Origin: Saccharibacter sp. 17.LH.SD
Lineage (GTDB): Bacteria > Pseudomonadota > Alphaproteobacteria > Acetobacterales > Acetobacteraceae
Reading direction: 5' to 3'
Assembly: GCF_009834805.1 (NCBI RefSeq)
Contig: NZ_WVHO01000001.1
Location: 1-64,000 of the forward strand
Length of the DNA stretch: 64,000 nucleotides
Notes under the pieces: model-generated
What the model saw: only the letters and a program-made list of their open reading frames with translations
What the model was told of the DNA's origin: nothing
Databases searched by the model: none
Shown here: positions 4,282 to 38,715 of the stretch, one piece after another
How positions within the stretch are numbered: position 1 is the first letter of the stretch
Layout of the letters: each line of letters begins with the position of its first letter
Position numbers and translations under genes: made by a program

Positions 4282-5409
4282 TTAGGAAGCCGTGCTTGCT
4301 GAAGATGAGGCAGGAGCACTTGACGCTGGCCCTGCGGCTGTAAACTCATTTGCCTCAGACACGCCCACAGAAAGGATGGTGGTTGCTTCGCCGCGCAATG
4401 CCCAGCCGCTCGTCGTGCGCATGAATGTTACGACGTCTGTTGCTTCTGCTCCGACGGGGCCGGTGATTTCGGCAGGAATAGCCCGGTCTGCAAACAAGCC
4501 ATTGCAGTTCAAATTAGCTTGACCAAACTCATCGGCAAAAACGTTCGTATCAATTGCCCCTTGTGCGGCCATATTGGGCAGCTCTGGAATGGTAAAGAGC
4601 ATGATGTCCGTCCCATTTGCCCCACGTCCACGGAGTTCGTCATCTGGGGCAAAGGTGACATCCACGTTCGCGGCGTTCATAACGCCACGGACAGCCTCCA
4701 AAATGGACGCAGAACCAGCCCCAGGGCGCTGATAGCCGGTAAGTTCTACAACCTTACTGACCAAGGTTCCCAAGACGCGCTGAGGGGTCAGGCAAGTGAC
4801 TTTAACGGCTGCACCACCATCATTGTAGCGGCCTGTAACACCAAGCAAGTTACAGCGGTTCAAAATCCCTGTAATAACGCGGTTTAAAGCCTGGAAAAGC
4901 TGGTTAGGGTCATAGTCATCAACGGTTGCTTTACCGTTACTATCGGCTGGGAGATTTTCTCTTACCGTGCCGCTGCTGCTATTGATGAGACCTTCCCCAT
5001 TTTGTGGGTTAAACCCAAAGAGCGCCGCATCGCGCAAAAGCTGGAAATGCCCCTGACGCATGGCCTTAGAATACGCATCGGTCAGCGACATATTCCAGTT
5101 GGCCGCTGCGTTTAAATCTTCACGCGAATAGACGACACGAATTTTCTGCTCATAAGTCGGTGTCGTGATGTAATCGAGGTTAAGGCTTACGGTTGGGAGC
5201 TCATTATACCCCGTTTGAGAGCCCTGCGCGATGGTGCGGAGATCGAGCACAGGAACATAAACGGCTTGGTCACGCTCAGTAAGGCGAACATCCAATTCCT
5301 GGCGTGGGAAGAGATACATAAAGCCCGATCGTAGGGCATAATTGATAAGAAAGCGTGGGTCTGTAAATGACGGGTTCACCGTCATTCTGGTAGGGGCGAT
5401 GAGTGCCAT
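4282..5409 (-). CDS. Major capsid protein (DUF2184-like)
   Basis: A 375-residue protein placed after the decoration protein and upstream (in late-operon order) of the neck genes. Composition is typical of HK97-fold capsid proteins of the DUF2184 family: an N-terminal segment with PSFTDPRFLINYALRSG, a beta-rich core and an insertion with many Asn/Gly. The C-terminal tail is Ala/Ser-rich (residues ~355-375) and probably flexible. It forms the icosahedral shell after assembly on the portal. The call rests on order, length and overall resemblance. Confidence 0.75.
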   Translation of the reverse strand: MALIAPTRMTVNPSFTDPRFLINYALRSGFMYLFPRQELDVRLTERDQAVYVPVLDLRTIAQGSQTGYNELPTVSLNLDYITTPTYEQKIRVVYSREDLNAAANWNMSLTDAYSKAMRQGHFQLLRDAALFGFNPQNGEGLINSSSGTVRENLPADSNGKATVDDYDPNQLFQALNRVITGILNRCNLLGVTGRYNDGGAAVKVTCLTPQRVLGTLVSKVVELTGYQRPGAGSASILEAVRGVMNAANVDVTFAPDDELRGRGANGTDIMLFTIPELPNMAAQGAIDTNVFADEFGQANLNCNGLFADRAIPAEITGPVGAEATDVVTFMRTTSGWALRGEATTILSVGVSEANEFTAAGPASSAPASSSASTAS

Positions 5410-5432
5410 TTCTTAATGATCCTTAGGGAGAA

Positions 5433-6089
5433 TTAAAATTGGATGAGAACCAAAATGGAATCTTTAACGTCCTCGCTGCGCTGCCAGGTGGAGGTCCCCG
5501 CTGTCTGGTCAATCGAGACGAGTTTTCCGCCTGTTTGGAAGACGTCGAGAAGGCGTACGGGAATAGTGTTTGAGCCCGATCCAGCAACAAGGCGTTGCTT
5601 CGTGAAGTCCCACCCGTAAGAGCCCTGCGTCTGGCTCCCTACTTGGCTTAAGAGGGCGGGGTCAGCCTGCACGGGAAGGCGCATTTCAGAACCGAACCGC
5701 ACAAACCCGATAGACATCCCTGGGGTTGAAATGGGCACCTGACTTGATGGTGTGATGACCATATGATTAGCATGGTCGAAGACCGCGAAGCCTGTCATGT
5801 CCTGGGGTGAGGTGGCGCGTTTAAGCGCGTTACCATAACGGCCATTATTAGGCGACTGACCGGCATTGACGGTTGCGCCCATGCCGGGGAATTGGCCGGT
5901 GCGTTCTGATACGGCAACGCCACCCCACATAGGCAGTGTCTCATTCGGGTCAACATAGCCAATAGAGAGACGATAACGGGTGGCCGGGTCAGCCCACGTA
6001 AGGCCCTGAATGGCGCCCGTGGTGGAGCTACTAAAAAGCCCGGACGCCTGAGTTGTGGCGTACGGGTTGATTGGGAACGTATTTACCAT
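5433..6089 (-). CDS. Probable capsid decoration/cement protein
   Basis: A 218-residue, almost entirely beta-rich protein. Gly/Ser/Thr-rich segments and a low charge are typical of capsid cement or decoration proteins encoded between the maturation protease and the capsid gene. The start has a fair ribosome site (AAGGATTTCTTTC ATG). No enzymatic motif is seen. Function is inferred from its place and composition. Confidence 0.55.
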   Translation of the reverse strand: MVNTFPINPYATTQASGLFSSSTTGAIQGLTWADPATRYRLSIGYVDPNETLPMWGGVAVSERTGQFPGMGATVNAGQSPNNGRYGNALKRATSPQDMTGFAVFDHANHMVITPSSQVPISTPGMSIGFVRFGSEMRLPVQADPALLSQVGSQTQGSYGWDFTKQRLVAGSGSNTIPVRLLDVFQTGGKLVSIDQTAGTSTWQRSEDVKDSILVLIQF

Positions 6090-6101
6090 GAAAGAAATCC
6101 T

Positions 6102-8168
6102 TTAAGCCATGAATTCGCCGAAAGCGCTTTTGAAAGAGCCGCGATATTCGGTGCGTGTGTGGCCGGTTGGGCTGCGTTGCGTGACAGGGCGGACGGGGTC
6201 ACTGTCTTTGTAACGAACGGGGCGCCTTGCGGCTTCCTGGGCGTCTTTGTGGATTTGACGGGACGCAAGCGCGAACACTTCCGGGGGAAGTTCGGAAAGG
6301 TCTGCATTCTTCCAATCGGTAGAATGCGGCTGAAGAAGCTTTGCACAACGGCGCTGATAGCCTGCGACGCTTTCGCCCGGAATGTAACGCGGCGTTTGAA
6401 GGCCCAGAGGTTGGGCGACTGCGTCCGTTTTAGATTCAGCCTCGCTGATCTCGTTATGCTCTTCGTCGCTAAGGGGGCGCGTCCGCCGCTGAAGCCGTTC
6501 GAGCTCTGCTCGTGCCTCTTCATCGCGCTTATTGAGTTCGTCGAGGCGATCCCTTACGGCGCGGTCTTTATCGCTTTCTAGGTCCACAAACTCCGCAGGG
6601 TTGCCGCCGCAATCGGTGACGCATTGAGCAATTGCCGCATCAGAGCAGCCATTCTCACGCATATGCGCGACCATCGTTGCGAGCATCTCATTTTTTTGAG
6701 CGTCGTTGCCGGGCTCATCTTTACGGTCAGCCGTAACAGTCGCAGGCGCGGCCATAGTGTCTTTCTTGTCCTTCTTATCGGTGCGCTCTTTGTCTTCTTT
6801 GCGGAGTTCTTCCTTCTCCATCGGTTTATTCTCTTCATCTTGAGAGGGGACGAGATTGAGCAGCGCTTGGGCTAACTCATCGCCGTTTTCTGGCATCTCT
6901 GAGGGCTCTTCTGTGGCTGGGCTCTGCTCAGGGGCGGGCTCCCCAGGAATAAAGCTTGAGGGCTGCGCTGGGTCTGTTGGGGCGGTATCGTGCTTCTCAA
7001 TGTCGCGGCCAATGCGCACCAGCTCACGCGCGATTTCTTTTTCGTCAGGCTCCTGGCCGTCTTTGCGGTCGGCTTCTGCTTTCGCGCCTTCAAAAAGCCC
7101 TTTGAGCTTGTCGAGGTCTTCGAGGGCCTTATCATAAACGCGCTCGCCTTCTGCGTCGTCCTTACGGCTTGCATCGTGGCGTTTATCTTTAGCTTTTTGT
7201 CTGAGCGCATCGTATGCGGCTCTTGTTTTCTCGCGGCTTAGCTCAGCCATAGTATCGAGTTCCTTTATGCGTTTGTTGAGAGGGGTGTCTATGCCGGTTG
7301 GGGGGCCGTATTTGTCCCACACACCAGCAGGGACAATCGCGAGATGGTCGGGGTGGAAAGGGACATCTTCGAGGATAAGGGTTTGCCCATCGCCTAAGGG
7401 CGTTCCGATACTGTCTTTCCCTGTCAGAACGCCCGGCGAGGTGGACCACGGCTGCTTTGTAAGCTGCTCCGCCATCGCGCGATCTTGAATGCGGACGATG
7501 CCCCATAGTTCTTTGTCTTTGACATAAGGATAAACCACGGAGCCCACGACGCGGTCACGGTAGAAGTTATCTTCAATGACGGGGCCTTCGGGATGGTCAA
7601 AAACAACGGGCAGCCCCTGGAAAGCCTCCATTACGCCGGGCGTTAGCCAGACATCACGATCTCGGTAAGCGTATTCCTGTTTATCGCCACCACGATACGC
7701 CCAGCCCGTGCCACTAATCCGCATGGCAAAAAGTGTGACGTTATAAAATAGTTCCGGGCTGGTATATTTCCCCTCGGCGATCTTGCGGCAGATGTCGCCC
7801 ATATTGGCCGTGAAACGGTCGAGAATATCAGCCGTAGAGCCAAAGAGCGGAGCCGGGAGATCATCGCCCTTAAACCACCCATAGGCGGTATGCTCGTCGT
7901 TCAGTTTGGGCGTAAAGGTCTCTTTGCATTTGATTGCAAAAGCCGTAAACGCGCCGTCCCCATCGCGCCGGGGGAGGCTTACACTCCACAGCAGCAAGCC
8001 ATCAGGAGCGAAGCCAATTTCTTCGCGCGCTTCACGGTTGGCCGTTTCGCGTGGGGTCTCGTCTGGTTGGCTGTCTCCTCCTGTAATCCCCCATGTGCCG
8101 TCACGCCGTTTGAGCAGCAGAATACGGCCATCGGCGGTATAGACGTTACCGGCGGCTTGAATAGACAT
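6102..8168 (-). CDS. NUDIX hydrolase fused to DUF2213 prohead protease/scaffold-like protein
   Basis: A 688-residue protein. Residues ~1-125 are a NUDIX domain with a complete NUDIX box: G31, E37, then R45-E46-A-R-E49-E50-I-G52. NUDIX enzymes cleave nucleoside diphosphate-linked compounds. Residues ~130-300 match the DUF2213 family found at the prohead-protease position of phages with DUF1073 portals. The region ~305-560 is highly charged (Lys/Glu/Asp), consistent with a scaffold segment, and the C-terminal ~120 residues are Arg/Glu-rich. It sits between the Mu F-like and decoration genes. The fusion of an enzyme to a capsid-assembly protein is unusual; the intact NUDIX residues argue for activity. 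Confidence 0.8.
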   Translation of the reverse strand: MSIQAAGNVYTADGRILLLKRRDGTWGITGGDSQPDETPRETANREAREEIGFAPDGLLLWSVSLPRRDGDGAFTAFAIKCKETFTPKLNDEHTAYGWFKGDDLPAPLFGSTADILDRFTANMGDICRKIAEGKYTSPELFYNVTLFAMRISGTGWAYRGGDKQEYAYRDRDVWLTPGVMEAFQGLPVVFDHPEGPVIEDNFYRDRVVGSVVYPYVKDKELWGIVRIQDRAMAEQLTKQPWSTSPGVLTGKDSIGTPLGDGQTLILEDVPFHPDHLAIVPAGVWDKYGPPTGIDTPLNKRIKELDTMAELSREKTRAAYDALRQKAKDKRHDASRKDDAEGERVYDKALEDLDKLKGLFEGAKAEADRKDGQEPDEKEIARELVRIGRDIEKHDTAPTDPAQPSSFIPGEPAPEQSPATEEPSEMPENGDELAQALLNLVPSQDEENKPMEKEELRKEDKERTDKKDKKDTMAAPATVTADRKDEPGNDAQKNEMLATMVAHMRENGCSDAAIAQCVTDCGGNPAEFVDLESDKDRAVRDRLDELNKRDEEARAELERLQRRTRPLSDEEHNEISEAESKTDAVAQPLGLQTPRYIPGESVAGYQRRCAKLLQPHSTDWKNADLSELPPEVFALASRQIHKDAQEAARRPVRYKDSDPVRPVTQRSPTGHTRTEYRGSFKSAFGEFMA

Positions 8169-8196
8169 GAGGAACCTTCATAGGGTGGGGGAACTG

Positions 8197-9027
8197 TTAG
8201 CGCTTGCCTTTGCCGTTTTTGATGTCGTGCACAGCAGCAAGGCCCTTTTCTGTCAGCATTTCTTCAGGAAGATCAGTGAGGGAGTAAAGGTAAATTCCCT
8301 TACAGGAGCAGAAGGGCGCCGTTGCGAAGCCTTCTGTATCTTCGTAAAAATCGACGTCTTTCTTGATGTAGCCGTTCTGGTAGGCCCAGCTATCCTTGAG
8401 GACGAAAATCTTCCCATTCCGGGCCAAATGTTCCGGTCGATGATGATAATTCGGACGGCTCGCGTTAGCATCCCAGATAACGGCAATCGCTTTATTATCA
8501 GAGGCGACGAGATAGTTTAGATTGGCGCTAAACTTGGCGTTCTGGTCAATAACAGTCCGCCGCTCTTCAAAGGGCTGTTGATAAAGCGGTTTGCTGATCT
8601 GTGCCTTAATCTCTCGGACTTTCTCGGGGGTTGTCATGCCGGGGTTTTGTGCCGTCGCCCATCCTGAAAAGCGCTGCAATGTTTGCTCGACCGCGCGGTC
8701 TTTATTGAGGGTGATAAGCTCCGTAGCGGCGGCAATCCGTCGCGCCAATTCACGTTGTAGGGATGGGGAGAGCTGCTTGACTGTGTAAACGGAGATTTGG
8801 TGCTCTTTGGCGATGGATCCTTTGGTGACTTTTTGGGTGTAGCTCGCCTGTAAAACGCGCTTTACCCGTCGGGTGCTTTCTTCATCACTGCCGACCATAC
8901 GCTTAGCGAGTTGTCTGAGCTTACGGAGCCATCTTTGATGTCTGGCTTTACTGTCATAGCCGTTTCTCCTCAAATCTTCGACCGCCTGCGTAAGCACGCT
9001 CTGAAAGGTCTCTCGTTTGCGGGACAT
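8197..9027 (-). CDS. Mu gpF-like minor head protein
   Basis: A 276-residue protein. The N-terminal ~170 residues are helical and very basic. Residues ~165-250 resemble the C-terminal Mu F head-morphogenesis domain, with HHRPEHLARNGKIF in place of the usual R-x-EH-x-x-x-NG-x-x-F signature and a Cys-containing GFATAPFCSC segment. Mu F-like proteins are minor head components needed for DNA ejection or head assembly and are normally encoded next to the portal. Here only a small rightward HTH gene intervenes. Confidence 0.75.
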   Translation of the reverse strand: MSRKRETFQSVLTQAVEDLRRNGYDSKARHQRWLRKLRQLAKRMVGSDEESTRRVKRVLQASYTQKVTKGSIAKEHQISVYTVKQLSPSLQRELARRIAAATELITLNKDRAVEQTLQRFSGWATAQNPGMTTPEKVREIKAQISKPLYQQPFEERRTVIDQNAKFSANLNYLVASDNKAIAVIWDANASRPNYHHRPEHLARNGKIFVLKDSWAYQNGYIKKDVDFYEDTEGFATAPFCSCKGIYLYSLTDLPEEMLTEKGLAAVHDIKNGKGKR

Positions 9028-9125
9028 AATGTAAACTCTTCACAAAAAAGCTTATATCTTTACGCGTTTTGCGTAATATTGTTCTTGCCGAGGTAATAGT
9101 ACCCGGTTTTCAAAGGAGAATATCC

Positions 9126-9347
9126 ATGACACCTACACGGCTGAGGCAATGCCTTGATACACTCCATTGGACGCAACGCGGCTTTGCGCGCATCGTTGGA
9201 TGCAGTGAAGGGACGGTGAGACAGTGGGCGCGTGGGCGTCTCTCCGTTCCCTCATCCATTGCGGCGTGGCTGGAAAAGATAGCGGATTATGTCGAAAAAA
9301 ACCCGCTCCCAAAGCCGTTTTCTGCGCAAGAAAGCGAGCCTTCATGA
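9126..9347 (+). CDS. Small helix-turn-helix protein inserted between portal and Mu F genes
   Basis: A 73-residue protein read opposite to the late genes. Start ATG at 9126 is chosen because AAAGGAG lies 9 bp before it. Residues ~1-50 form an XRE-like HTH: LRQCLDTLHWTQRGFARIVG followed by GTVRQWARGR. It has a clear paralogue at 27784-28149, outside the attachment site, sharing TQRGFARIV/SQRGFARIV and TVRQW. It ends 9 bp before the portal stop. It is a lysogenically expressed cargo-gene candidate; target unknown. Confidence 0.7.
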   Translation: MTPTRLRQCLDTLHWTQRGFARIVGCSEGTVRQWARGRLSVPSSIAAWLEKIADYVEKNPLPKPFSAQESEPS

Positions 9348-9355
9348 CGGTTCGC

Positions 9356-10786
9356 TCAGGGCAAATCTTCCCCCTCTGGTTCGCTTTCCTTTAGGTCAAA
9401 AGAGCCAGGGGGAAGAGAGGCGATTCTCTGCGTGTCGATATTGAGCTCACCGCTGAATATCTCTTCTCCTGTGTTTTCGATATTTCTTTGGACGAACTCA
9501 ACGAGTCCTCCAATATCCCTTGGAGAGCTTTGGACTAAGGGGGCGAGAACCCGCGCTGTCTCAAGTATGATACGATATTTCTTTTCTGTGACATCGAAAC
9601 TTTCATCTGTGCTCTCAGAAGGCCATGTGGGGGTAAAGCTATTCCGCCATTCTCGGAAAATAGTTTCGTTGCTCTTGTTCCCATACTCTTTAGGATATTT
9701 CTCACGCATAGCCGCGATGAAATCAGGGCTCCAAGCCCGGCGCATGGCGACAGCATCACAAAAACCGTAGATCATTTTGAGCCAGCGGCGGACGCGGCTG
9801 ACATATTGGGCGATCTGTTTGGCGTCCTCCGTTCCTTCTCCGAAGCCTTGTGCTAGTGTTTCCGCCTTGAGAATTTGGGCGGGCATCGTGGCGCCGGCGG
9901 CGATGTCCTCTAGGATATGCTGACGAACACCGCTCAGGGAGCTGTCAACATTCATGAGGTTAAGGGTGGCGACATCCTCATCATGGCCGATTGTAATGAC
10001 GTTCTCATTGGCAGAAATGCGGAGTTTCTCGGCTTTCTCTGTCGAAAAAACCTGCATCGCGCGATTAGCGATAGACGTTGGTTGTTTTAGCTTGGCAATG
10101 AGAACGCCCGCTTTACGTGCGACCTGGTTATTCGCAATCTGGGACTCAAGATAAGACCGCATAGGATACACGCAGCGGCGAAAACTTGAGCGCCCAGAAT
10201 AGCCATAAGCTGAGCTTTCATAATCAAGATATTCGGGCTCCTCATTCATCAAAATAAGGAAGCGCCCTTTTTTATAGGTTGTCCCATTGACCGTAACGGC
10301 GGCAGGGGCCTTCAAAAAGGAGGGGTCATTGGGGTCTTGCTGGAAAACAAGCGATCCTGCTGTGTTCAGAGGGTCTACAACGTTGAAATAAATATCCAGC
10401 TCATGCAGGCGGTTAAACGGGATGTCTTGATCAGGGGGGATACGTTTATTCGTTTTCGGGTCAACGGCTCCGAATACCATAACAGCCACACCATAAACAC
10501 GCGCCTTTGTGCCCAGTTGAGCAATAATATCGTCACAACCAATAAACCCCCAATGGCGTTTAAACTCCTTTGCGGGCTCATCGTCTAAGGCGTCACCAAC
10601 ACGAATCTTACGTTCTTCCCCCATGGCCATATCCACAGGCATACGCGCAATTTTAGCGCCTAAGGGATGAGACGTATAAAGCAGCTTGCACAACTCATAC
10701 GAAGGGGCGTGACCGGGCAGAAGCTGCGTATTAAACAGCTCACGCCATAGGGCATTGTCGCCAAAATCTGATGATGTGCCTGCCAT
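9356..10786 (-). CDS. Phage portal protein (DUF1073 family)
   Basis: A 476-residue protein directly downstream of the large terminase (3-bp gap). It matches the DUF1073 portal family, with N-terminal PLGAKIARMPVDMAMGEERKI and the central segment SSLSGVRQHILEDIAAGATMPAQIL followed by GFGEGTEDAKQIAQYVSRVR. Portals form the dodecameric ring through which DNA enters and leaves the head. Some relatives carry an Acb1 phosphodiesterase domain; I see no paired HxT/S motifs here, so this copy looks like a portal alone. The C-terminal ~30 residues are acidic. Confidence 0.85.
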   Translation of the reverse strand: MAGTSSDFGDNALWRELFNTQLLPGHAPSYELCKLLYTSHPLGAKIARMPVDMAMGEERKIRVGDALDDEPAKEFKRHWGFIGCDDIIAQLGTKARVYGVAVMVFGAVDPKTNKRIPPDQDIPFNRLHELDIYFNVVDPLNTAGSLVFQQDPNDPSFLKAPAAVTVNGTTYKKGRFLILMNEEPEYLDYESSAYGYSGRSSFRRCVYPMRSYLESQIANNQVARKAGVLIAKLKQPTSIANRAMQVFSTEKAEKLRISANENVITIGHDEDVATLNLMNVDSSLSGVRQHILEDIAAGATMPAQILKAETLAQGFGEGTEDAKQIAQYVSRVRRWLKMIYGFCDAVAMRRAWSPDFIAAMREKYPKEYGNKSNETIFREWRNSFTPTWPSESTDESFDVTEKKYRIILETARVLAPLVQSSPRDIGGLVEFVQRNIENTGEEIFSGELNIDTQRIASLPPGSFDLKESEPEGEDLP

Positions 10787-10789
10787 TGG

Positions 10790-12070
10790 TTAAAGCCCTG
10801 TATTGTCGCCCAGCCCAATGACGACCCCGTAGCAAAAGCAATCGAGGAGATCGTCAGCGCGCCGGGCGGCGTCCTTATCGTTAAGGATGAAATTGAAAAC
10901 CTGGGTAAGGAAGTGATTGCGGGATTGGCCGCGAAAGATGGTTGTCTTATCGAAGGCGTGGCGAGTGAGGGTTATCTGCTCACGATGCACGTAAGGGGAG
11001 GCATTCAGCGCCCGTTGATCTTTGCCCATGCTGGTAAGCTTTGATTCAATGGGCTGTACTGGATACCCGTTTCGTTGCAACTGTGGGATAACGACAGAGC
11101 CCGCCGCCTTGTCTTCAATGAACAGGCCAATAGAGCCGCTTCGTGCCTTTGTCAGGCGCGCGTAATGTTCAAGCTGGCCCACAACAACGGGAGCCCACTC
11201 TTCCAGCATGCTCCCTTCAATCTCGACAATATCCCAATCAAGAACCGTAAGAGGGCGGCTCTGATTATAGTTGTCGAGCGAGAAGTAAATGACCCCCGTT
11301 CCGTCGTTGCCTGCACCACCTTTAAGGGTCGTATCGATGACGGCATACACACAATCACAGAAAGAAGGCGTATCGCTGGGCGCGTTATCGATAAGCAGAT
11401 GAGAGAGTTTAAAGAAGCTTGAGCCGTGCGCCCGGTAAGCCCCCTCCCAGATATGTTCATAGTTTTCTGGGTCGTGTTCATAACACCGTAAGCGTTCCTC
11501 ATTGAGGGTCTCAGGAAGCCACGGATTGTCTGACCAATTGATCTGACTAATGAAAGCACGAGGGTTTTCAAGAAGGCTCTCTTTCAGCTTCTCAATAGGG
11601 GCGCCTTCTTCAAGCGGGTTCCAGGTAAACCAAACCTCAGAGCCTTTCTTTCGAATGGTCGGTAGAAGGAGGTCAATTGAATCCTGGCTTAAGGTTTGCG
11701 CTTCTTCGACCCATGCAATGTCTACACCTTCAGTTGATTTGATGCTCTGAATATTGCGGGCGAGCCCCTTAAAGAGAAACTCTGATCCATTATAAGCCCG
11801 AATACTGTTCTCTAGGATGGTGAACCAAGGAGACAGCCCTAATTCGCTAATCTGATCAGACAGAAGCTTATGAACAGAGTCTGCCATAGAGTTTTGATAT
11901 TCGCGGCAGCACAAAACACGTAATGTTCGCGACATCGTGAGGAGAACGAGAACTTTTGCAATCGCCCATGACTTACCGCCCCCACGGCCTCCATGCCAAA
12001 GACGATAGCGATAAGGATGTGAGAAATTCCCAAACTTGGCGTGCAATTTGACGGTGATAGCTTCAGCCAT
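10790..12070 (-). CDS. Terminase large subunit (PBSX/Terminase_3 type)
   Basis: A 426-residue protein. The N-terminal ATPase has Walker A G27-G-R-G-G-G-K33-S34, and a Walker B region with VDIAWVEEAQ near residue 117. The motif TWNP follows near residue 150. The C-terminal RNase H-like nuclease begins near CVYAVIDTTLKGGAGNDG, where Asp residues bind metal. It cuts concatemeric DNA and pumps it through the portal next door. The small subunit gene lies 23 bp upstream. Confidence 0.9.
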   Translation of the reverse strand: MAEAITVKLHAKFGNFSHPYRYRLWHGGRGGGKSWAIAKVLVLLTMSRTLRVLCCREYQNSMADSVHKLLSDQISELGLSPWFTILENSIRAYNGSEFLFKGLARNIQSIKSTEGVDIAWVEEAQTLSQDSIDLLLPTIRKKGSEVWFTWNPLEEGAPIEKLKESLLENPRAFISQINWSDNPWLPETLNEERLRCYEHDPENYEHIWEGAYRAHGSSFFKLSHLLIDNAPSDTPSFCDCVYAVIDTTLKGGAGNDGTGVIYFSLDNYNQSRPLTVLDWDIVEIEGSMLEEWAPVVVGQLEHYARLTKARSGSIGLFIEDKAAGSVVIPQLQRNGYPVQPIESKLTSMGKDQRALNASPYVHREQITLTRHAFDKTTIFRGQSRNHFLTQVFNFILNDKDAARRADDLLDCFCYGVVIGLGDNTGL

Positions 12071-12093
12071 GGCGGCAGGACTAAATCTCGTTT

Positions 12094-12378
12094 CTATTCG
12101 TCGTCAGAGACGCTCTGAATAATTAATTGAGGAGGTGAGAGCGGGGCACCTCCCGGGCCTGAAAGTTCCTGCACGGCGGTTGACTTCCCATAGCCGCGGT
12201 CAAGAAGTTCTTTAATTGCTGCAATGCGTGCCGTATCGTTTTTTGAGCGCTGGGCAATATCGAAAAGCATTTCTATTGCAGGCTTGCCGAATTGCTGAGC
12301 GATTGATTTTACTTCTGCCGTCGCTTTATTGAGGCTCCCTTTTTTCCGACCAGAACCCGCGGGTTTAGCCCGTGGCAT
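12094..12378 (-). CDS. Terminase small subunit-like DNA-binding protein
   Basis: A 94-residue protein. The Arg/Lys/Gly-rich N-terminus (GSGRKKGSLNKATAEVKSIAQ) and helical middle ending with AAIKELLDRGYGKS are typical of small phage proteins in the small-terminase slot. It would recognise the packaging site and stimulate the large subunit. A good ribosome site (AAGGAGA) precedes the ATG. Directly upstream are three 10-bp repeats that could be a recognition site. Confidence 0.65.
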   Translation of the reverse strand: MPRAKPAGSGRKKGSLNKATAEVKSIAQQFGKPAIEMLFDIAQRSKNDTARIAAIKELLDRGYGKSTAVQELSGPGGAPLSPPQLIIQSVSDDE

Positions 12379-12390
12379 GATAGGTTCTCC

Positions 12391-12420
12391 TTATCTATTA
12401 TTATCTATTTCGATCTATTT
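12391..12420. repeat. Three 10-bp direct repeats upstream of the small terminase
   Basis: The heptamer ATCTATT occurs three times at exactly 10-bp spacing, one helical turn. The block lies 13-42 bp upstream of the small terminase start and covers the 3' end of the small gene at 12401-12559. This spacing suits cooperative protein binding on one DNA face. A cos/pac recognition role or a late-operon control role is inference. Confidence 0.5.
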
Positions 12421-12559
12421 TATTGAGAATAACGCCACAAACAGCGCAACGATGAAGCGGCGTCTCCATGAAGAGATGACCGCTTTTTAGGCAGCTATGC
12501 CTTGGGCGCCAGAATGTGAAGAAACAGAAGCGCATGAAACGGGTCATCGCGGATGCCAT
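12401..12559 (-). CDS. Small zinc-ribbon-like protein
   Basis: A 52-residue reading frame with a strong ribosome site (AGGAAGGT just before ATG). The protein has Cys/His pairs in HSCLKSGHLF and HRCAVCGVIL, suggesting a single zinc site. The N-terminal part is aromatic and basic. It ends 22 bp before the small terminase and probably leads the late operon. No family is recognised. Confidence 0.5.
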   Translation of the reverse strand: MASAMTRFMRFCFFTFWRPRHSCLKSGHLFMETPLHRCAVCGVILNKIDRNR

Positions 12560-12571
12560 ACCTTCCTGGAA

Positions 12572-12617
12572 ACACACTAAAACACATTTAAGCTTGTATT
12601 ATGTGTATTAAGTGTGT
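12572..12617. promoter_or_regulatory. Imperfect inverted repeat, candidate HicAB operator/promoter
   Basis: The arm ACACACTAAAACACAT (12572-12588) faces ATGTGTATTAAGTGTGT (12601-12617), an inverted repeat with few mismatches. It lies directly upstream of hicA and of the divergent small gene. HicB antitoxins with a C-terminal RHH domain, as here, autoregulate at such sites. Binding is inferred. Confidence 0.45.
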
Positions 12618-12628
12618 ATATTTCATTC

Positions 12629-12817
12629 ATGAACAGCAGAGACGTGATCAAGAAACTAAAAGAAGATGGTTGGTACCACGTCAAAACGACTGGTGATCAC
12701 TGGCACTTCAAGCACCCAACGAAACCGGGCAAGGTCACGGTTACGCATCCAAAGCGAGATGTAAGCCGCTTGGTCATGAAATCTGTAGAGAAGCAAGCAG
12801 GGATTAAATTAAAATGA
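12629..12817 (+). CDS. hicA: HicA-type mRNA interferase toxin
   Basis: A 62-residue protein starting at ATG 12629 (MNSRDVIKKL), the standard HicA start; an in-frame GTG 15 bp earlier is less likely. It has the dsRBD-like HicA fold, with GDHWHFKHPTKPGKVTVTHP containing the catalytic His equivalent. HicA cleaves mRNA and is blocked by HicB. Its stop overlaps the hicB start (ATGA), so the pair is cotranslated. Such modules stabilise prophages or act in phage defence. Confidence 0.9.
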   Translation: MNSRDVIKKLKEDGWYHVKTTGDHWHFKHPTKPGKVTVTHPKRDVSRLVMKSVEKQAGIKLK

Positions 12818-13197
12818 CTCAGTATCTCGCTGTTATTAGCAAGGACCCTGACAGTGACTATGGGGTTCATTTTCCAGACTTCCCGGGCTGCGTGACGGCA
12901 GGGGAAACAATTGACGAAGCACGACGTATGGCTGAAGAAGCTCTGTCAGGCCATATTGCACTGATGCGGGAAGATGGTGACGTCATCCCCGCGCCATCGT
13001 CATATGAAGACATTATGAAAGACCCAGATAATCATGGTCTTTTTGTTTGTGAGATTTCGCCAGAAGACTATGACCCTATGGTGCGCGTTAACGTGACATT
13101 ACCGCGATCGGTTTTAGAAGCTATTGGGAAAGGGCGTAATCGTTCGGCATTTCTTGCTCAAGCTGCCCGCGAGAGATTGGGGTTAGCAGAACGGTAG
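12814..13197 (+). CDS. hicB: HicB-type antitoxin
   Basis: A 127-residue protein. The N-terminal partial RNase H-like domain has the HicB signature DYGVHFPDFPGCVTAGETIDEA. The C-terminal segment VRVNVTLPRSVLEAIGKG with RSAFLAQAARERL is a ribbon-helix-helix DNA-binding domain. It neutralises HicA and probably represses the operon at 12572-12617. It is a full-length, intact partner. Confidence 0.92.
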   Translation: MTQYLAVISKDPDSDYGVHFPDFPGCVTAGETIDEARRMAEEALSGHIALMREDGDVIPAPSSYEDIMKDPDNHGLFVCEISPEDYDPMVRVNVTLPRSVLEAIGKGRNRSAFLAQAARERLGLAER

Positions 13198-13204
13198 GAT
13201 ACAA

Positions 13205-13558
13205 CTAATTTCTAGAGTAGCTATCCTCATATTCTTGCATCTCCATCTCTTTCGAGACGGCTTTATCGATCCTCTCCATAAGAGGGACGGGCACGGCTTG
13301 GCCCAATCGCCAGACCTGCCGCGGTTCGGTTATGAACGGGACACAACGCACGAAATCACGAGGATCAAGCCCGAGCAGCCCGGCGTCATAGAGGGATAGA
13401 TGGACATCAGCGCGGTGTCGGGTATCTGGGCCTTTTTTAATCGGCACCATCACCACACGTCCTTGATGCCGCTTAATGATGACGTAAAGACCGCGTGGGC
13501 TAGATACAATTCTCCCGCGCCCTATCCTGCGGCCAGGAAGGAGAGAGAAAGAGAGCAT
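13205..13558 (-). CDS. Hypothetical MazF/PemK-like protein
   Basis: A 117-residue protein convergent with hicB (7-bp gap). The pattern GRGRIVSSPRGLYVIIKRHQGRVVMVPI, a central GLLGLDPRDFVRC and the final RLGQAVPVPLMERIDKAV follow the beta-barrel and last helix of MazF/PemK mRNA interferases (IVAPI, L-x-x-x-G-L, RLG-x-L-x-x-x-x-M-x-x-I). The identification is by pattern only and I see no antitoxin beside it. It could be an orphan toxin-like protein or a barrel DNA-binding protein. Confidence 0.45.
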   Translation of the reverse strand: MLSFSLLPGRRIGRGRIVSSPRGLYVIIKRHQGRVVMVPIKKGPDTRHRADVHLSLYDAGLLGLDPRDFVRCVPFITEPRQVWRLGQAVPVPLMERIDKAVSKEMEMQEYEDSYSRN

Positions 13559-13615
13559 GATTTTCTACCAAAAAACGGCTAATTTCTCAGTTTTTTCTTG
13601 CTTTTTTGTAGGTAT

Positions 13616-13633
13616 GTTTCTATAAATAGAAAC
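13616..13633. promoter_or_regulatory. 18-bp palindrome upstream of small phage genes
   Basis: GTTTCTAT and ATAGAAAC flank a 2-base centre, a perfect 8-bp palindrome. It lies 46 bp before the ATG of the 38-residue gene, where a regulator bound to the promoter would sit. The binding protein is unknown; the HTH protein at 13945 is a candidate. Confidence 0.4.
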
Positions 13634-13679
13634 AAGGGGAGCCCATAAGGGGCACCCGACGGACTAGAAAGGGTCGAAA

Positions 13680-13796
13680 ATGAGTAACAAGAAAGAAAAC
13701 TTACTGTTTATCATGGCGCTTATCGGCGCTGTAGGAACGGTTATTCAGACAGCTTTTGCTATCGCTGATCACATCAAAACATGGTTTAAGCATTGA
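13680..13796 (+). CDS. Small membrane protein, 38 residues
   Basis: A short frame, MSNKKENLLFIMALIGAVGT and on to a basic end HIKTWFKH. There is one hydrophobic segment (residues ~8-28) and Lys/Asn at the N-terminus. A terminator follows the stop by 6 bp, which supports it as a real transcription unit. Single-segment phage peptides can be holin-like, pinholin-like or type I toxin-like; I cannot choose among these. Confidence 0.5.
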   Translation: MSNKKENLLFIMALIGAVGTVIQTAFAIADHIKTWFKH

Positions 13797-13802
13797 GGGA
13801 GA

Positions 13803-13823
13803 GGGGAGAAACTCTCCCCTTTT
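13803..13823 (+). terminator. Rho-independent terminator
   Basis: GGGGAGA and TCTCCCC form a 7-bp stem with a 3-base loop followed by TTTT. It lies between the 38-residue gene and the 37-residue gene and could attenuate transcription into the latter. Confidence 0.75.
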
Positions 13824-13834
13824 GGGGAAGTGGC

Positions 13835-13948
13835 ATGACTGAGAAACTAATAGACTATTTGAGCGATAAGCCTTCTCGTTTTGTGATCGCTATGGCGGCA
13901 CTTTTTGTTGTGGCCTTCGTTGGCCGCCTATGGTGGAATTTCGCATGA
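13835..13948 (+). CDS. Small membrane protein, 37 residues
   Basis: A 37-residue frame starting MTEKLIDYLSDKPSRF, with one transmembrane segment (FVIAMAALFVVAFVGRLWW). Its stop overlaps the ATG of the next gene (ATGA at 13945), and that coupling is the main support for translation. Function unknown. Confidence 0.5.
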   Translation: MTEKLIDYLSDKPSRFVIAMAALFVVAFVGRLWWNFA

Positions 13949-14211
13949 CAGAAGGGAAACGCTTAACAATTGATCAGCTAGCGCGCGCCGGTCAAGCCGC
14001 GTTTGGTGAGCGTTGGCAAACGGCGCTTGCGAATGTCTTAAATGTTAATTCTAGCCGGATTAGGGGAGTCCTAGCGGGGAAAAGACTTCCTCCGCCTGGT
14101 TGGACCCCTGAAATTATAGAGCTGTTACGGAGGCGCTCCCAAGAATGCCTAGATATGGAGCGCGCCCTGGAAAATGAGCTTAATTCTGGCAACGCGCCTG
14201 ATAGGGATTAA
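13945..14211 (+). CDS. Putative HTH DNA-binding protein
   Basis: An 88-residue protein. ATG 13945 is preferred to 13930 because it overlaps the preceding stop. The middle (FGERWQTALANVLNVNSSRIRGVLAGKRLPPPGW) resembles a degenerate HTH module in which helix pairs recognise DNA. The C-terminal third is an acidic/basic helix. It may regulate nearby promoters, including that of the candidate RNA immediately downstream; this is inference. Confidence 0.6.
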   Translation: MTEGKRLTIDQLARAGQAAFGERWQTALANVLNVNSSRIRGVLAGKRLPPPGWTPEIIELLRRRSQECLDMERALENELNSGNAPDRD

Positions 14212-14296
14212 CTCAATTTCTCAGAGGTCTCTAAAGTGACACAGTGGCGTGACGAACCCCGTAAAAAGTACAAAAAACCGCCGTTTTATAGAGAAT

Positions 14297-14326
14297 TTGA
14301 GTCGACTCATTATATAAGGGTACGAT
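14297..14326 (+). promoter_or_regulatory. Sigma-70-like promoter of the candidate structured RNA
   Basis: TTGAGT (14297-14302) and TACGAT (14321-14326) are separated by 18 bp. The expected start, 6-8 bp downstream, falls at about 14333, the first base of the long stem. The match between predicted start and structure edge is the main support. Confidence 0.5.
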
Positions 14327-14332
14327 ATAGAG

Positions 14333-14460
14333 GCACCTGTCCTTTTTCCCACCCCGGGATTTAGGACTTTTCACCGGTAGCGGGGCTGCAACCCTGCTAC
14401 CATTTTCCAAACTCACAGCACGTTTCTGTGCTGCTCAAGGACAGGTGCTGTTTTGTCTGT
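14333..14460 (+). ncRNA. Candidate structured phage RNA closed by a 12-bp stem
   Basis: GCACCTGTCCTT (14333-14344) pairs perfectly with AAGGACAGGTGC (14437-14448). Inside are three hairpins: a weak 4-bp one (14347-14359), a 10-bp stem with a 6-base loop (14376-14401: GGTAGC paired with GCTACC, extended by GGGG with CCCT), and a 6-bp stem with a 6-base loop (14416-14433). The result is a four-way-junction or cloverleaf shape. A TGTTTTGTCT tract follows. No long reading frame fits either strand. There is no reverse transcriptase nearby, so it is not a recognisable retron. I know no family with this layout. Confidence 0.55.
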
Positions 14461-14575
14461 ATCGATACCAACCACACACCCATTCGGGTTTAGCGTTCGT
14501 ATCATTATAGGTATACACCCTATGCCTGCGAGACAGAGCACAGAAGCGACGCTGTGTCAATAGTGAGACACAATT

Positions 14576-14884
14576 ATGTCAACTCCAAGCGTTCCAGACC
14601 TTATAATGCAAGGGATAACACAACATCGCTGCTTATCTATTGTGTATAATGGCATCGGGAGGGTTATCGAACCCTATACCATAGGTATTTCTCGGGCGAG
14701 CAATCCCGTGGTTCGTGCGTGGCAGGTTAGTGGAGCAAGTATCAGTGGGCAGAATAGCGGTTGGAAGCTTTTAGAAATAAGCAAACTCGGTAACGTGTTT
14801 TTGATGAACACCACTTTCCAACCCAACCGCCCGGGATATAACCCTTACGATAAAGGTATGATATCCATTTATCAAAGAATCTAA
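14576..14884 (+). CDS. Stand-alone WYL-like domain protein
   Basis: A 102-residue protein. Residues ~10-95 follow a WYL-type pattern: I-x-x-x-x-CLSIVYNGIGRVIEPYTIGI, VVRAWQVSG, GWKLLEISKL and a final PNRPGYNPYDKGM. Small proteins of this kind occur in alphaproteobacteria and their phages; WYL domains sense ligands or nucleic acids in regulators and defence systems. It follows the candidate RNA by 115 bp, and a bidirectional terminator lies 93 bp after its stop. A short palindrome (TGTGTC/GACACA) precedes its start. Confidence 0.6.
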   Translation: MSTPSVPDLIMQGITQHRCLSIVYNGIGRVIEPYTIGISRASNPVVRAWQVSGASISGQNSGWKLLEISKLGNVFLMNTTFQPNRPGYNPYDKGMISIYQRI

Positions 14885-14976
14885 AGCCTCCACAATCGCA
14901 TGTGTCTGCTAGTTCGGCGGGTTCATTATGGACGGCACAGTCTGACCAATGATCCATATTTCCCTCAAATAGCAAA

Positions 14977-15007
14977 AGAGAGGTGGGTTTTCTCACCTCT
15001 CTATTTT
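14977..15007. terminator. Bidirectional rho-independent terminator
   Basis: AGAGAGGTG and CACCTCTCT form a 9-bp stem with an 8-base loop, with ATTTT on the plus side and CTTTTGC on the minus side. It separates the rightward WYL-like gene from the leftward early operon ending at 15035. Confidence 0.8.
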
Positions 15008-15034: not shown

Positions 15035-15580
15035 TCATGACACGTTTTTTCTAAACGTACAAGTGTCTTTTTCTCGTGCTTCTTTTTTCTTTTTTTCGAT
15101 GTAGAAGTTCCCTAGTTGTTCTAGGAGTAGAGCGCATTGAGAGCGCGCATATTTGTGAGCGTCTGGCTGTTTTTTTTGTGGCCAGAGCGTCGTTCCCAAA
15201 GCCGAAAAGCTCAGTCCGTCAACGAGCAGCATTTTAAGCCGCATGTGAGAGCACAAGCCCAGCGCTTGGGTTACTTCGCTGAGCCGTTCGCCCGCCTTAG
15301 CGCGTGCAATCGCAAATGTGTGTTCATCGCCCTTGATGTAATCAGCGGGGAGGGGCTCGCCTAATTCGTCAGCGTATCTATGCACACTGAAGAGGTAGTC
15401 TTTGAGCCACCGCTCAGATGCCGTGACAGCCTCCCCGTCAATATCCCCGCTATCGTGTAGCGCTTGCACGGTCTTCGATTTAACGCGGCGTTTACGCTTG
15501 CCCGTCCCAACTGTTTCGTAATCGGGTTTTAATATGCGCTCTTTGGTCGGTGGGATCGTGCTGAAGATGTTATCCGTCAT
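15035..15580 (-). CDS. Hypothetical protein at the late-regulator position
   Basis: A 181-residue basic protein, last gene of the leftward early operon. The C-terminal half (SEVTQALGLCSHMRLKMLLVDGLSFSALGTTLWPQ) looks like an HTH with a sigma-like recognition segment. This position often holds an antiterminator or late activator, and that role is proposed from place only. Its ATG overlaps the preceding stop (ATGA). It shares the start MTDNI with the preceding methyltransferase-like gene, probably because a local duplication copied this junction. Confidence 0.6.
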   Translation of the reverse strand: MTDNIFSTIPPTKERILKPDYETVGTGKRKRRVKSKTVQALHDSGDIDGEAVTASERWLKDYLFSVHRYADELGEPLPADYIKGDEHTFAIARAKAGERLSEVTQALGLCSHMRLKMLLVDGLSFSALGTTLWPQKKQPDAHKYARSQCALLLEQLGNFYIEKKKKEAREKDTCTFRKNVS

Positions 15581-16122
15581 AAGGCCTCGTTGTGGGGAAT
15601 GAGTGGCGGAATCCAGTCAATTTGGGGGCGGCCAACATGTCCACGCTCCCAAACAAACCATGCATAGGCCGTTTCGCTGGTCGCGCGATCGGAGAAAATC
15701 CAAACACGAGAAAGAGGTGTCTCTTTTATCCATTGACTATGTTTCCTTCCTTCAAGAAAGGACAGTTTTAGGAATAGACATACGCGATCCTTGGTATGTT
15801 TTAACGCAAGGTCAGCGAGTTCTTGCGCCTGATCATAAGTCGGCTGTGAAACAACAGACACCAGTTCATGACCTAACTGAGGTATGGTATCCCTAAAATC
15901 GTATCCGTCACTGATATCCAAAGACGATATTCCCGATCCTCGGAAGTGAGAAAATGCCTTAGCAATATCCCGCTGGCCGCAGCAGGGATCTAGAACCATT
16001 CCAACGAAAGGCCTTTCGACGGCTAAGAAACGTTCCGTCGTGGAGATAAGTTCGTTGTCTGCTTTCCTATCAGGCAGTTTTTCTGCGTTCATCAGAGCGG
16101 GCATGTTAATGTTATCCGTCAT
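15577..16122 (-). CDS. Degenerate adenine methyltransferase-like protein
   Basis: A 181-residue paralogue of the protein encoded at 16119-16715, sharing DPCCGQ, YDQAQELADLALKHTKDRVCLFL and FLEGRK. The motif IV NPPY of the neighbour is here Q93-P-T95-Y96, and the motif I Gly after DPCCGQ is replaced by Arg51. Both changes should abolish N6-adenine methylation. The reading frame stays open, so the protein may be kept for binding DNA or its partner, or may simply be recent and decaying. It overlaps both neighbours by ATGA. Confidence 0.75.
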   Translation of the reverse strand: MTDNINMPALMNAEKLPDRKADNELISTTERFLAVERPFVGMVLDPCCGQRDIAKAFSHFRGSGISSLDISDGYDFRDTIPQLGHELVSVVSQPTYDQAQELADLALKHTKDRVCLFLKLSFLEGRKHSQWIKETPLSRVWIFSDRATSETAYAWFVWERGHVGRPQIDWIPPLIPHNEAL

Positions 16123-16715
16123 GTGGCCTCGTCGGTGTGGGAGAGTGGCGGAAGTCGTCTATTTTGTGAAAACCCGACATGTCCATGCTCCCAGACAAAC
16201 CAGGCGTAAAAGATCGTTCCTCCGTGTCGTTGTTTCTGGCCGAGCAAGTGGCCCGGTGTGCAACTGATTCTGTCTGCGGGGAGATAGATGCGCGCCAGGG
16301 GTGTTTTATCCAGCCATTCTGCCCGTTTACGCCCTTCTAAGAAGGCGATTCTCAAGAACAAGCACACTCGGTCAGTCGTGTGTTTTAATGCTAGCTCTGC
16401 GAACTCTTGCGCCTGGTTATAAGGCGGATTTGAAATAACGGACGACCAGCCCAGGGCCAGCGTCTCCCTGAAGTCGTTTACGAGAAACTCAGGGTCGCGC
16501 GAGACGAGATCATAGCCAGCACAAGAAGCGCAGGAATCAGGGGAAAGATGCCGCTTGACGGAGCGCACGACATTCCCCTGACCACAACACGGGTCAACAA
16601 TCCGGCCAAAGAACGGGCGTTCTGCCTGCAAGAGCCGATCCGTTGCGCTTTCGGGTTCAACATAGAAATCGCTTTCTACTCGTTCATAAGGTGAACGGGT
16701 TGCTTTTGTCGTCAT
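16119..16715 (-). CDS. Phage DNA adenine methyltransferase
   Basis: A 198-residue protein with motif I DPCCGQG (41-47) for S-adenosylmethionine and motif IV NPPY (96-99), the N6-adenine signature. Start ATG 16715 is chosen because it overlaps the stop of the small membrane gene (ATGA). It is compact with no visible target-recognition domain, like phage Dam-type or orphan enzymes that modify phage DNA against restriction. Its degenerate duplicate follows directly. Confidence 0.8.
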   Translation of the reverse strand: MTTKATRSPYERVESDFYVEPESATDRLLQAERPFFGRIVDPCCGQGNVVRSVKRHLSPDSCASCAGYDLVSRDPEFLVNDFRETLALGWSSVISNPPYNQAQEFAELALKHTTDRVCLFLRIAFLEGRKRAEWLDKTPLARIYLPADRISCTPGHLLGQKQRHGGTIFYAWFVWEHGHVGFSQNRRLPPLSHTDEAT

Positions 16716-16807
16716 AAGCTTCGTATCGCCTTTACGAACAGGGCAATGCCAGACAGAGCGAAGAATACCGCCAATCCACCACCTGTTAGCTCCCAAAAAG
16801 CTTCCAT
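16712..16807 (-). CDS. 31-residue membrane peptide upstream of the methyltransferase
   Basis: A frame starting MEAFWELTGGGLAVFFALSG and ending AIRSL, one transmembrane segment with a basic end. AGAGGGAGAG precedes its ATG, and it overlaps both neighbours (TAATG before, ATGA after). The tight coupling is the evidence for translation. Function unknown. Confidence 0.55.
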   Translation of the reverse strand: MEAFWELTGGGLAVFFALSGIALFVKAIRSL

Positions 16808-37866: not shown

Positions 37867-38715
37867 GTGGATATGATCGGTAATAAAGACATTCATGATG
37901 TTATGTATATACATCAGATATTTATTTGTAATGAGAATTATCCACGTGATAATCTGAAATTCCCAGATCCTATTGAGGATAATATATGTGAGATACGTCG
38001 AATTTATCCGAGCGCTACGTATATATTGTGGAATGACGAGACGATACTGAAGTTTCTTCAAGATAATTTTGATAATGATGTATCTGTTGCGTATAAGAAT
38101 ATCACGGCATTTGCATACAAAGCTGACTTAGCGCGATATTGTATTTTATATATTATGGGCGGTATTTACGTTGATCTAGGTATTAAAATAATAAATTCTT
38201 GGGATATTCCTAAAGAAAAAGGTTTTGCGGCTTTTAAAGAACTTGGATTTACAAATGAAAGTTGGACCACTATGCAAAATGGTTTGATTTGGTCTTTGCC
38301 AAAGAGAAGGGAGTTAGAGATTTGCATCCAGTATATTATAGAAAACTATAAAAATAAATTTTATGGCAAGACACCGCTTTGTATAACAGGACCCATTATG
38401 TACGGGCGCGCTATCACAGCTGCTATGGTAGAGAAGGGGCAATCAGATGAGGTAGATGATCAATGGGTCGGGGAGTATCGTTGGACAACGCCAGAATATG
38501 CGATGAAAAATGATGCTTATGTTTCTCCTGATCATAGGCTTATTGCTTTTAGAATAAAATTGATCGCGGGTGATCTTTCTCATCTCGGTTTAAAAGGAAC
38601 TAATAATTATAAGGAAATATGGGAATCTCGTCAGGTTTATGGTGAAAAGTCTCATAAGATTGGTAGCAGGAAAAAGATAAGCTTTCATGGTTTATGGAAG
38701 AAGATATTTAGTTGA
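37867..38715 (+). CDS. Capsular-type glycosyltransferase, short paralogue
   Basis: A 282-residue paralogue of the preceding protein: AYKADLARYCILYIMGGIYV followed by D103-L-G105, QNGLIWSLPKRRELE, DQWVGEYRWTTPE and DLSHLGLKGTNNY. It lacks the C-terminal extension. The start is uncertain: GTG 37867 or ATG 37873, both with weak ribosome sites. Very low G+C like its neighbour. The tandem arrangement suggests two related transfer steps in one polysaccharide. Confidence 0.7.
   Translation: MDMIGNKDIHDVMYIHQIFICNENYPRDNLKFPDPIEDNICEIRRIYPSATYILWNDETILKFLQDNFDNDVSVAYKNITAFAYKADLARYCILYIMGGIYVDLGIKIINSWDIPKEKGFAAFKELGFTNESWTTMQNGLIWSLPKRRELEICIQYIIENYKNKFYGKTPLCITGPIMYGRAITAAMVEKGQSDEVDDQWVGEYRWTTPEYAMKNDAYVSPDHRLIAFRIKLIAGDLSHLGLKGTNNYKEIWESRQVYGEKSHKIGSRKKISFHGLWKKIFS

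Follow-up and report, generated by a model that had tools for sequence, protein, structure and literature searches.

What does a stretch of 116 nucleotides do that is predicted to fold into a compact four-way junction in a prophage of Saccharibacter sp. 17.LH.SD, directly ahead of a gene for a small WYL-type protein? A preliminary description of the locus had proposed a structured RNA, transcribed from a promoter of its own, that belongs to no described family. To address this question, we considered the window, namely the whole 64,000-nt stretch of DNA that was analyzed, with positions 1-27500 taken as the prophage span, a working limit set from an integrase-like ORF and a tRNA-Val. The features discussed are collected in Table 1.

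Table 1 Features of the locus and its surroundings, in window coordinates.
Feature	Position	Strand	Remark
Small hydrophobic peptide, 38 aa, first gene of the upstream module	13680..13796	+	74% identical in L091
Small hydrophobic peptide, 37 aa	13835..13948	+	68% identical in L091
Protein of 89 aa, weak HTH_31 similarity	13942..14211	+	E 0.0089, below Pfam cut-off; PHROG 3626 and 12690
Promoter-like TTGAGT-N18-TACGAT	14297..14326 (14297-14302, 14321-14326)	+	8/12 matches, chance-level frequency
Perfect 12-bp palindrome TGAGTCGACTCA	14298-14309		overlaps the promoter-like string
Four-way-junction element (116 nt)	14333..14448	+	z -6.0; strand taken from the downstream WYL gene
Closing stem, 5' arm GCACCTGTCCTT	14333..14344	+	exact complement of AAGGACAGGTGC
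Hairpin 1, 4 bp	14347..14359	+	predicted fold
Hairpin 2, 10 pairs, one G.U	14376..14401	+	predicted fold
Hairpin 3, 6 bp	14416..14433	+	predicted fold
Closing stem, 3' arm AAGGACAGGTGC	14437..14448	+	exact complement of GCACCTGTCCTT; 12 bp
Second, weaker closed domain, 10-pair closing stem	14449..14540	+	predicted only for an RNA with its start at 14333
5-bp hairpin just ahead of the WYL start codon	14554..14571	+	prediction only; missing from the fold of 14212-14884
Stand-alone WYL-type protein, 102 aa, predicted Sm-like barrel	14576..14884	+	AlphaFold model, structure matches
Inverted repeat located between two convergent genes, WYL and 15035	14977..15002		terminator score on - strand only

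The perfect closing stem and the three hairpins of the preliminary description were both recovered, the two arms being exactly complementary and the hairpins appearing in the predicted fold. In the computed ensemble, 30 of the 32 pairs of the element have a probability of at least 0.97, with the remaining two at 0.86 and 0.76. As the element was picked by eye out of 64 kb, the shuffle and window-energy figures are weakened and should be read as such: the minimum free energy (MFE) of positions 14325-14460 is -58.8 kcal/mol, compared with a mean of -36.2 for 200 dinucleotide shuffles (z -6.00), none of which is as stable, while the MFE of the element itself (-55.5) lies below that of all 2282 windows of the same length over positions 1-27500 (116 nt, step 12 nt; the next being -53.6). 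By z-score, the element ranks second among 468 windows between 10 and 24 kb (15 random sequences per window), behind a stretch with AT-rich repeats at 12371. The claim of an unusually stable structure in the prophage, outside convincing genes, was thus upheld. The multi-branch shape alone, nonetheless, is common by chance. With both strands of the window considered, stems of at least nine pairs that close at least three branches are predicted at 89 places, close to the 76, 67 and 68 places counted in three random sequences, and perfect 12-bp inverted repeats with arms no more than 120 nt apart are found at seven places in the 64 kb, the element included. The antisense strand folds nearly as well (-57.1 vs. 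-57.6), and folding of the element as single-stranded DNA gives a z of -4.9 against shuffles.

Extending the sequence towards the WYL gene also yields folds that are far more stable than those of shuffled sequences, with a z of -6.35 for 14333-14600 and of -6.8 (40 shuffles) for the 250 nt ahead of the WYL start. Positions 14449-14600 alone are only moderately better than their shuffles (z -2.4, with 5 of 200 being as stable), such that most of the stability of 14333-14600 is contributed by the element. The junction at 14333-14448 is a predicted autonomous folding domain. A 12-nt alternative pairing of 14421-14432 with 14537-14548 (92%) could compete with hairpin 3; as this is one of 11 inverted pairs in 1.5 kb, it is not claimed here.

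The element had also been assigned a promoter of its own. This we could not sustain, as the promoter-like string is present but matches at a level (8 of 12, spacers of 15-19) that is reached 7.7 times per kb over both strands, and as a scan with a 9-of-12 cut found no promoter on the + strand. The T-rich tract reported after the last stem base does begin at 14451, yet the terminator scan found none on the + strand between the element and the WYL gene. For an RNA beginning at 14333, the predicted fold places the tract in the 5' arm of a 10-pair stem (14449-14458 with 14531-14540), whereas in folds including upstream bases, the closing stem is extended outward and the tract is mostly unpaired. 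The state of the tract thus depends on the start site. The second domain directly abuts the last base of the element, and its closing stem is absent in the fold of 14212-14884.

The element lies within a 364-nt gap (14212-14575) ahead of the WYL gene that contains no convincing ORF. The earlier statement that no reading frame explains the sequence holds insofar as no convincing gene was found, although frames do touch the element, the longest encoding 42 aa on the + strand (GTG start, 14236-14364) and 61 aa on the - strand (14231-14416). The 42-aa frame was not believed to be a coding region, given that it has no Pfam match, no phage match and only a PHROG match at E 0.37; its one weak match (E 0.17) is to the beginning of an HNH nuclease from another locus (L058).

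The protein encoded downstream had been called WYL-like, and the structural comparison agrees, the best PDB matches being to WYL proteins, albeit weak. The protein has no profile match of its own in Pfam (E 0.01), PHROG, PADLOC or NCBIfam. Among four WYL relatives compared with Pfam PF13280, one just reaches the cut-off (L006, 21.9 vs. 21.8), two remain below it (L003 and L020) and one has no match (L016). The best of five AF2 models, obtained with a 6-row alignment, presents one helix and six strands (pLDDT 87.8, pTM 0.81; the pLDDT of the five models spans 60.7-87.8). Foldseek placed BrxR, DriD with ssDNA and PafBC at the top of the PDB rows, ahead of Sm and SmAP proteins, with a TMq of 0.56-0.67 for the WYL rows shown and a best E of 0.01, such that none reaches 0.001. 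The WYL/Sm-like fold of the downstream protein is a predicted one, of a type that RNA-binding proteins also have.

In the literature, WYL is described as an SH3 barrel of the Sm-like type that is predicted to sense ligands or nucleic-acid fragments (Makarova et al. 2014, PMC4012209), PafBC is reported to be activated by ssDNA and not by the equivalent ssRNA (PMC11804915), and DriD binds ssDNA in its WYL domain (PMC12340889). RspWYL1 is reported to prefer ssRNA, and its binding is abolished by mutations in the WYL domain, the C-terminal domain or the ribbon-helix-helix, as well as by deletion of the C-terminal domain, and is kept with one pair of WYL-domain mutations (PMC6547453). Based on these mutant data, a bare WYL domain need not bind RNA. 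The excerpted text of a jumbo-phage review mentions WYL in passing only (PMC7824862). The titles and abstract openings retrieved showed no WYL/phage/RNA pairing and no four-way-junction phage RNA, which should not be taken as a claim of absence from print.

Distant relatives of the WYL protein were found in IMG/VR (12 other loci) and among 200 genomes (7 besides the own one), with none added by an alignment scan of genome contigs. In 10 of the 12 phage loci, WYL begins no more than 14 nt after another ORF or overlaps with it, while in the remaining two (L004 and L005), WYL is part of a longer frame. Upstream of WYL, z-scores calculated for 14 of the 19 relatives range from 0.5 to -4.9, the strongest being those of L022 (-4.9) and L021 (-3.1), both being family-genome loci rather than phage contigs. 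As the relatives lack such a leader and the covariance model considered below finds nothing in their loci, the element is not a constant companion of this gene family.

To place the element in its prophage context, we compared 12 regions from relatives of TerL (with an E cut-off of 1e-20, such relatives were detected in 23 of the 200 family genomes, among them the own one) and ten more around the HTH gene. The usual order in related prophages is the 15035-like gene, the 13205-like gene, terS, terL and portal; in several regions, at least one of these genes was not detected. The first two genes adjoin in L062 and L090, with about 15 and 80 nt between them. In L061, a second prophage within the own genome, the 15035-like gene is found about 0.4 kb from terS, with the 13205-like gene being undetected. 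The window differs in that 1.5 kb separates the 15035 and 13205 genes, with an insert on the opposite strand that comprises, in order, the 38-aa peptide, the 37-aa peptide, the HTH-like protein, the element and the WYL gene. The peptide/peptide/HTH module is also present in L091, where the converging terL frame stops at the HTH stop codon, leaving no room for the element or the WYL gene. The element and WYL gene thus behave as a separate addition. In L065, from the same genus, the corresponding interval is about 9 kb long (5300-14500) and carries two dynamin-like GTPases matching the PADLOC LeoA and LeoBC models, together with a WYL-WCX regulator-type protein. The site is therefore variable and can hold defence-type genes. 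Such cargo in L065 does not show that the cargo in the window is defensive, and PADLOC found nothing for the HicA, HicB, HTH-like, WYL and 15035 proteins of the window. Our literature search on Leo clusters in such prophages found no papers.

Several other features of these regions were noted. A HicA/HicB toxin-antitoxin pair lies between terS and the 13205 gene (12614-13197, + strand). A small cysteine-pair ORF found near terS or terL (12401-12577, - strand, in the window) has counterparts in L061 (6448-6636), L062 (9283-9528) and L067 (4348-4542) and appears by eye to be conserved, its motif reading CAVCGV in the window, L061 and L062 and CLMCGT in L067. At 15577-16796, two adjacent genes match the same PHROG DNA methyltransferase family (phrog_799), possibly by duplication. 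At 13614-13834, small hairpins precede the 38-aa peptide gene and a strong hairpin follows it at about 13800-13820. Among 299 family genomes, this stretch was found in two, own included, and it is about 70% conserved in G001:C19 (L091/L119), where the changes in the hairpins look partly compensatory by eye. The small hydrophobic peptides, together with a structured leader, are suggestive of a module of the type I toxin-like or holin-like kind.

The preliminary description knew of no RNA family with this shape, and Rfam 15 at the gathering threshold indeed returned no match to the element, a tRNA being the only match in the window. For 14200-14600 at E up to 5, only three sub-threshold matches were obtained (E 0.31-0.92), including the CRISPR-repeat-like DR52, which was dismissed as noise (E 0.43, 19.3 bits vs. 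a threshold of 50). Searches by blastn gave no match for 14290-14470 in 50,697 phage records nor for 14200-14900 in 72,556 plasmid records, collections from which records of the own genome may be absent, and over 100 genomes, own included, returned the own copy only. IMG/VR contains the same prophage, with no difference across the 8.3 kb compared.

We also used a covariance model built from one sequence (R1; two identical rows), a construction by which distant homologues would be missed, with stricter filters in the whole-genome searches. Over 397 family genomes at E up to 0.5, R1 gave matches in five, namely the own copy and four others with a per-genome E of 0.013-0.099, which is chance level over 397 genomes. 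Three of these four alignments break pairs, the fourth spans model positions 17-71 only, and the MFE folds of all four differ from the junction of the element. Over 395 order genomes (a set overlapping with the former) at E up to 0.01, only the own copy was found. R1 found nothing in the 19 WYL loci or in 15 loci of the upstream HTH gene, one match at E 1.1 in the 12 related prophage regions, and one, also at E 1.1, in 40 further loci (L050; TerL relatives, HTH regions and one upstream-module homologue). The search for homologues with covarying stems that the preliminary description had proposed therefore returned nothing beyond chance-level matches, leaving the candidate unproven.

Pattern searches gave a similar picture. 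In viral contigs, the exact closing-stem pattern with a gap of 75-105 (the gap of the element being 94) was found in the same prophage only, as were the hairpin-2 and linker patterns in IMG/VR; an 18-mer of hairpin 1 is present in two further viral contigs, where R1 gives no support. In genome contigs, the closing-stem pattern with the same gap was found in 16 stretches, eight of which were folded. L102 and L108 are long near-perfect palindrome-like repeats, while L101 and L103 show several branches inside the shared stem, yet lie within long ORFs, as do L100 and L109. Across 19 pattern loci, R1 gave a single match at E up to 1 (E 0.084), in L105, a Hyphomonadaceae locus with the same CACCTGTCC arms. 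We took the genome-contig stretches as chance or unrelated repeats. Matches to the pattern are dispersed in one Hyphomonadaceae assembly (L102, L105, L108, L111, L112 and L114) and in one Nitrosopumilaceae assembly (L099, L104, L106, L107, L110 and L113), in the latter with a near-constant spacing of 120-122 nt and with two of the stretches folded. In the sets searched, the element appears to be present as a single copy with no detectable homologue.

How, then, should the element be understood? Of the explanations considered, we rank first, tentatively and at somewhat less than an even chance, a structured 5' leader that would regulate the WYL gene in cis, with 14333-14448 as its opening domain and possible processing to a stable RNA. 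In this reading, transcription, strand, start site and leader function are inferred, as is any binding on the part of the WYL protein. Together with the WYL gene, the element would make up an accessory unit that is oriented counter to its core neighbours and that entered the prophage at a variable site, with replication-side genes on one flank and terminase-side genes on the other. For transcription initiated at 14333, the leader would measure about 243 nt; it would act on translation or stability of the WYL mRNA and could yield a stable RNA when processed at the closing stem. In favor of this reading are the low energy relative to shuffles, the position of the element upstream of WYL in a gap with no convincing ORF and with no + strand terminator detected in between, the separate addition of element and gene and, if the start is at 14333, the second domain and the hairpin before the start codon. 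Against this reading stand the chance-level promoter match, the equal stability of the antisense strand and the moderate second domain. In other genomes, the WYL relatives occur without the element and, as the pairing of element and gene is thus seen once, it could be accidental. Because the pairing of the T-rich tract depends on the start site, the weight given to a leader was slightly lowered and that of a small RNA raised. The latter, ranked next and considered somewhat unlikely, would be an independent prophage sRNA about 116-130 nt long, with its 5' end at 14333 and its 3' end within or beyond the T-rich tract. It would act in trans, with its unpaired linkers available for base pairing or with a protein as its binding partner. 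The fold is compact and self-contained, with each closing-stem pair at a probability of at least 0.76, the promoter-like string lies at the right distance from 14333, the T-rich tract is largely unpaired when upstream bases are included, and phage-derived sRNAs are a reviewed class (PMC12197685). That promoter match, however, is of chance frequency, the scan found no terminator, and a start at 14333 would place the T tract in a stem. Exact 10-mer complementarities inside the window are, moreover, few, and the one examined further, of 11 nt at 38641-38651, maps close to the 3' end of an ORF that is not part of the prophage.

One must also consider that sequence inserted at a hot spot may fold well by accident. 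We regard such an unselected structure as unlikely, although the lack of a homologue, and hence of covariation, the near-random frequency of the multi-branch shape and the seven 12-bp inverted repeats in 64 kb all speak for it; that not one of 200 shuffles is as stable, and that no prophage window compared has a lower energy, speak against it. Less probable still, and in our view improbable, is a role at the DNA level, in which the inverted repeats would serve as an operator, a packaging or replication site or an extruding cruciform. Such a role would fit the equal folding of both strands, the single-stranded DNA fold and the perfect palindrome just upstream. On the other hand, terS is 1.95 kb away, with hicAB and the 13205 gene between, and R1 finds no such element in the 12 related prophage regions, seven of which have a detectable portal gene beside terL. 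The element is thus no shared core site, and a core packaging site was ruled out by its absence from sister prophages. A MITE was likewise rejected, as the element is single-copy in the genome and the repeat search showed no flanking duplication.

A bolder reading, by analogy with Sm proteins on snRNAs, is that the Sm-like WYL protein binds U-rich linkers of its four-way-junction RNA to form a phage RNP; we consider this a long shot. It is just as speculative that such an RNP would serve as a regulator or as a defence or counter-defence module, at a site that elsewhere holds a Leo-type cluster. Of the U-rich stretches of the element, 14368-14371 and 14403-14406 are unpaired and 14343-14347 is mostly paired. 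At least three U4 tracts are rare in mononucleotide shuffles (43 of 20000) but not in dinucleotide shuffles (3828 of 20000), and the U4 count of the element is reached in 77 of 2740 prophage windows.

The function of the element, whose relatives were not found in the sets searched, is therefore a guess, albeit a testable one. If expressed, this would be a structured RNA with no match in Rfam 15, located ahead of a WYL protein that consists of one domain. Within larger regulators, WYL domains are known to sense single-stranded nucleic acid, and a cognate structured RNA beside a stand-alone phage WYL protein would make the question of binding testable with two small molecules. If not expressed, the element would be an instructive case of thermodynamic stability alone being misleading.

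Among known systems, the outer ends of the element invite comparison with retrons. In retron msr-msd RNA, perfectly paired outer arms enclose hairpins, and the 12-bp inverted ends of the element (a1/a2-like) do the same. While the paired ends noted in the preliminary description are thus real, the retron itself was ruled out, since the own genome assembly, as had been stated, contains no reverse transcriptase match (PF00078, 0 matches; the control was positive in 3 of 14 genomes). In Y RNA, the 5' and 3' ends pair in a long stem with hairpins inside, and the partner is the Ro (TROVE) protein. The ends of the element are similarly paired around hairpins; a Y RNA/Ro system was ruled out by the lack of PF05731 (TROVE) matches in the own genome (control positive in 1 of 14) and of an Rfam match. 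Prophage sRNAs share with the element a compact non-coding structure in a prophage accessory region, but differ in that no promoter or terminator above chance level and no target within the window were found for the element. Cis-regulatory leaders of bacterial and phage mRNAs form a riboswitch-like or autoregulatory class. Although the element has no Rfam match, homologues, known ligand or attenuator, such that any regulation is putative, it resembles these leaders as a long structured untranslated stretch ahead of a same-strand gene. Finally, while the downstream protein is a single domain of 102 aa with weak matches (E 0.01 or worse), it shares with BrxR, DriD, PafBC and RspWYL1 the predicted WYL/Sm-like barrel.
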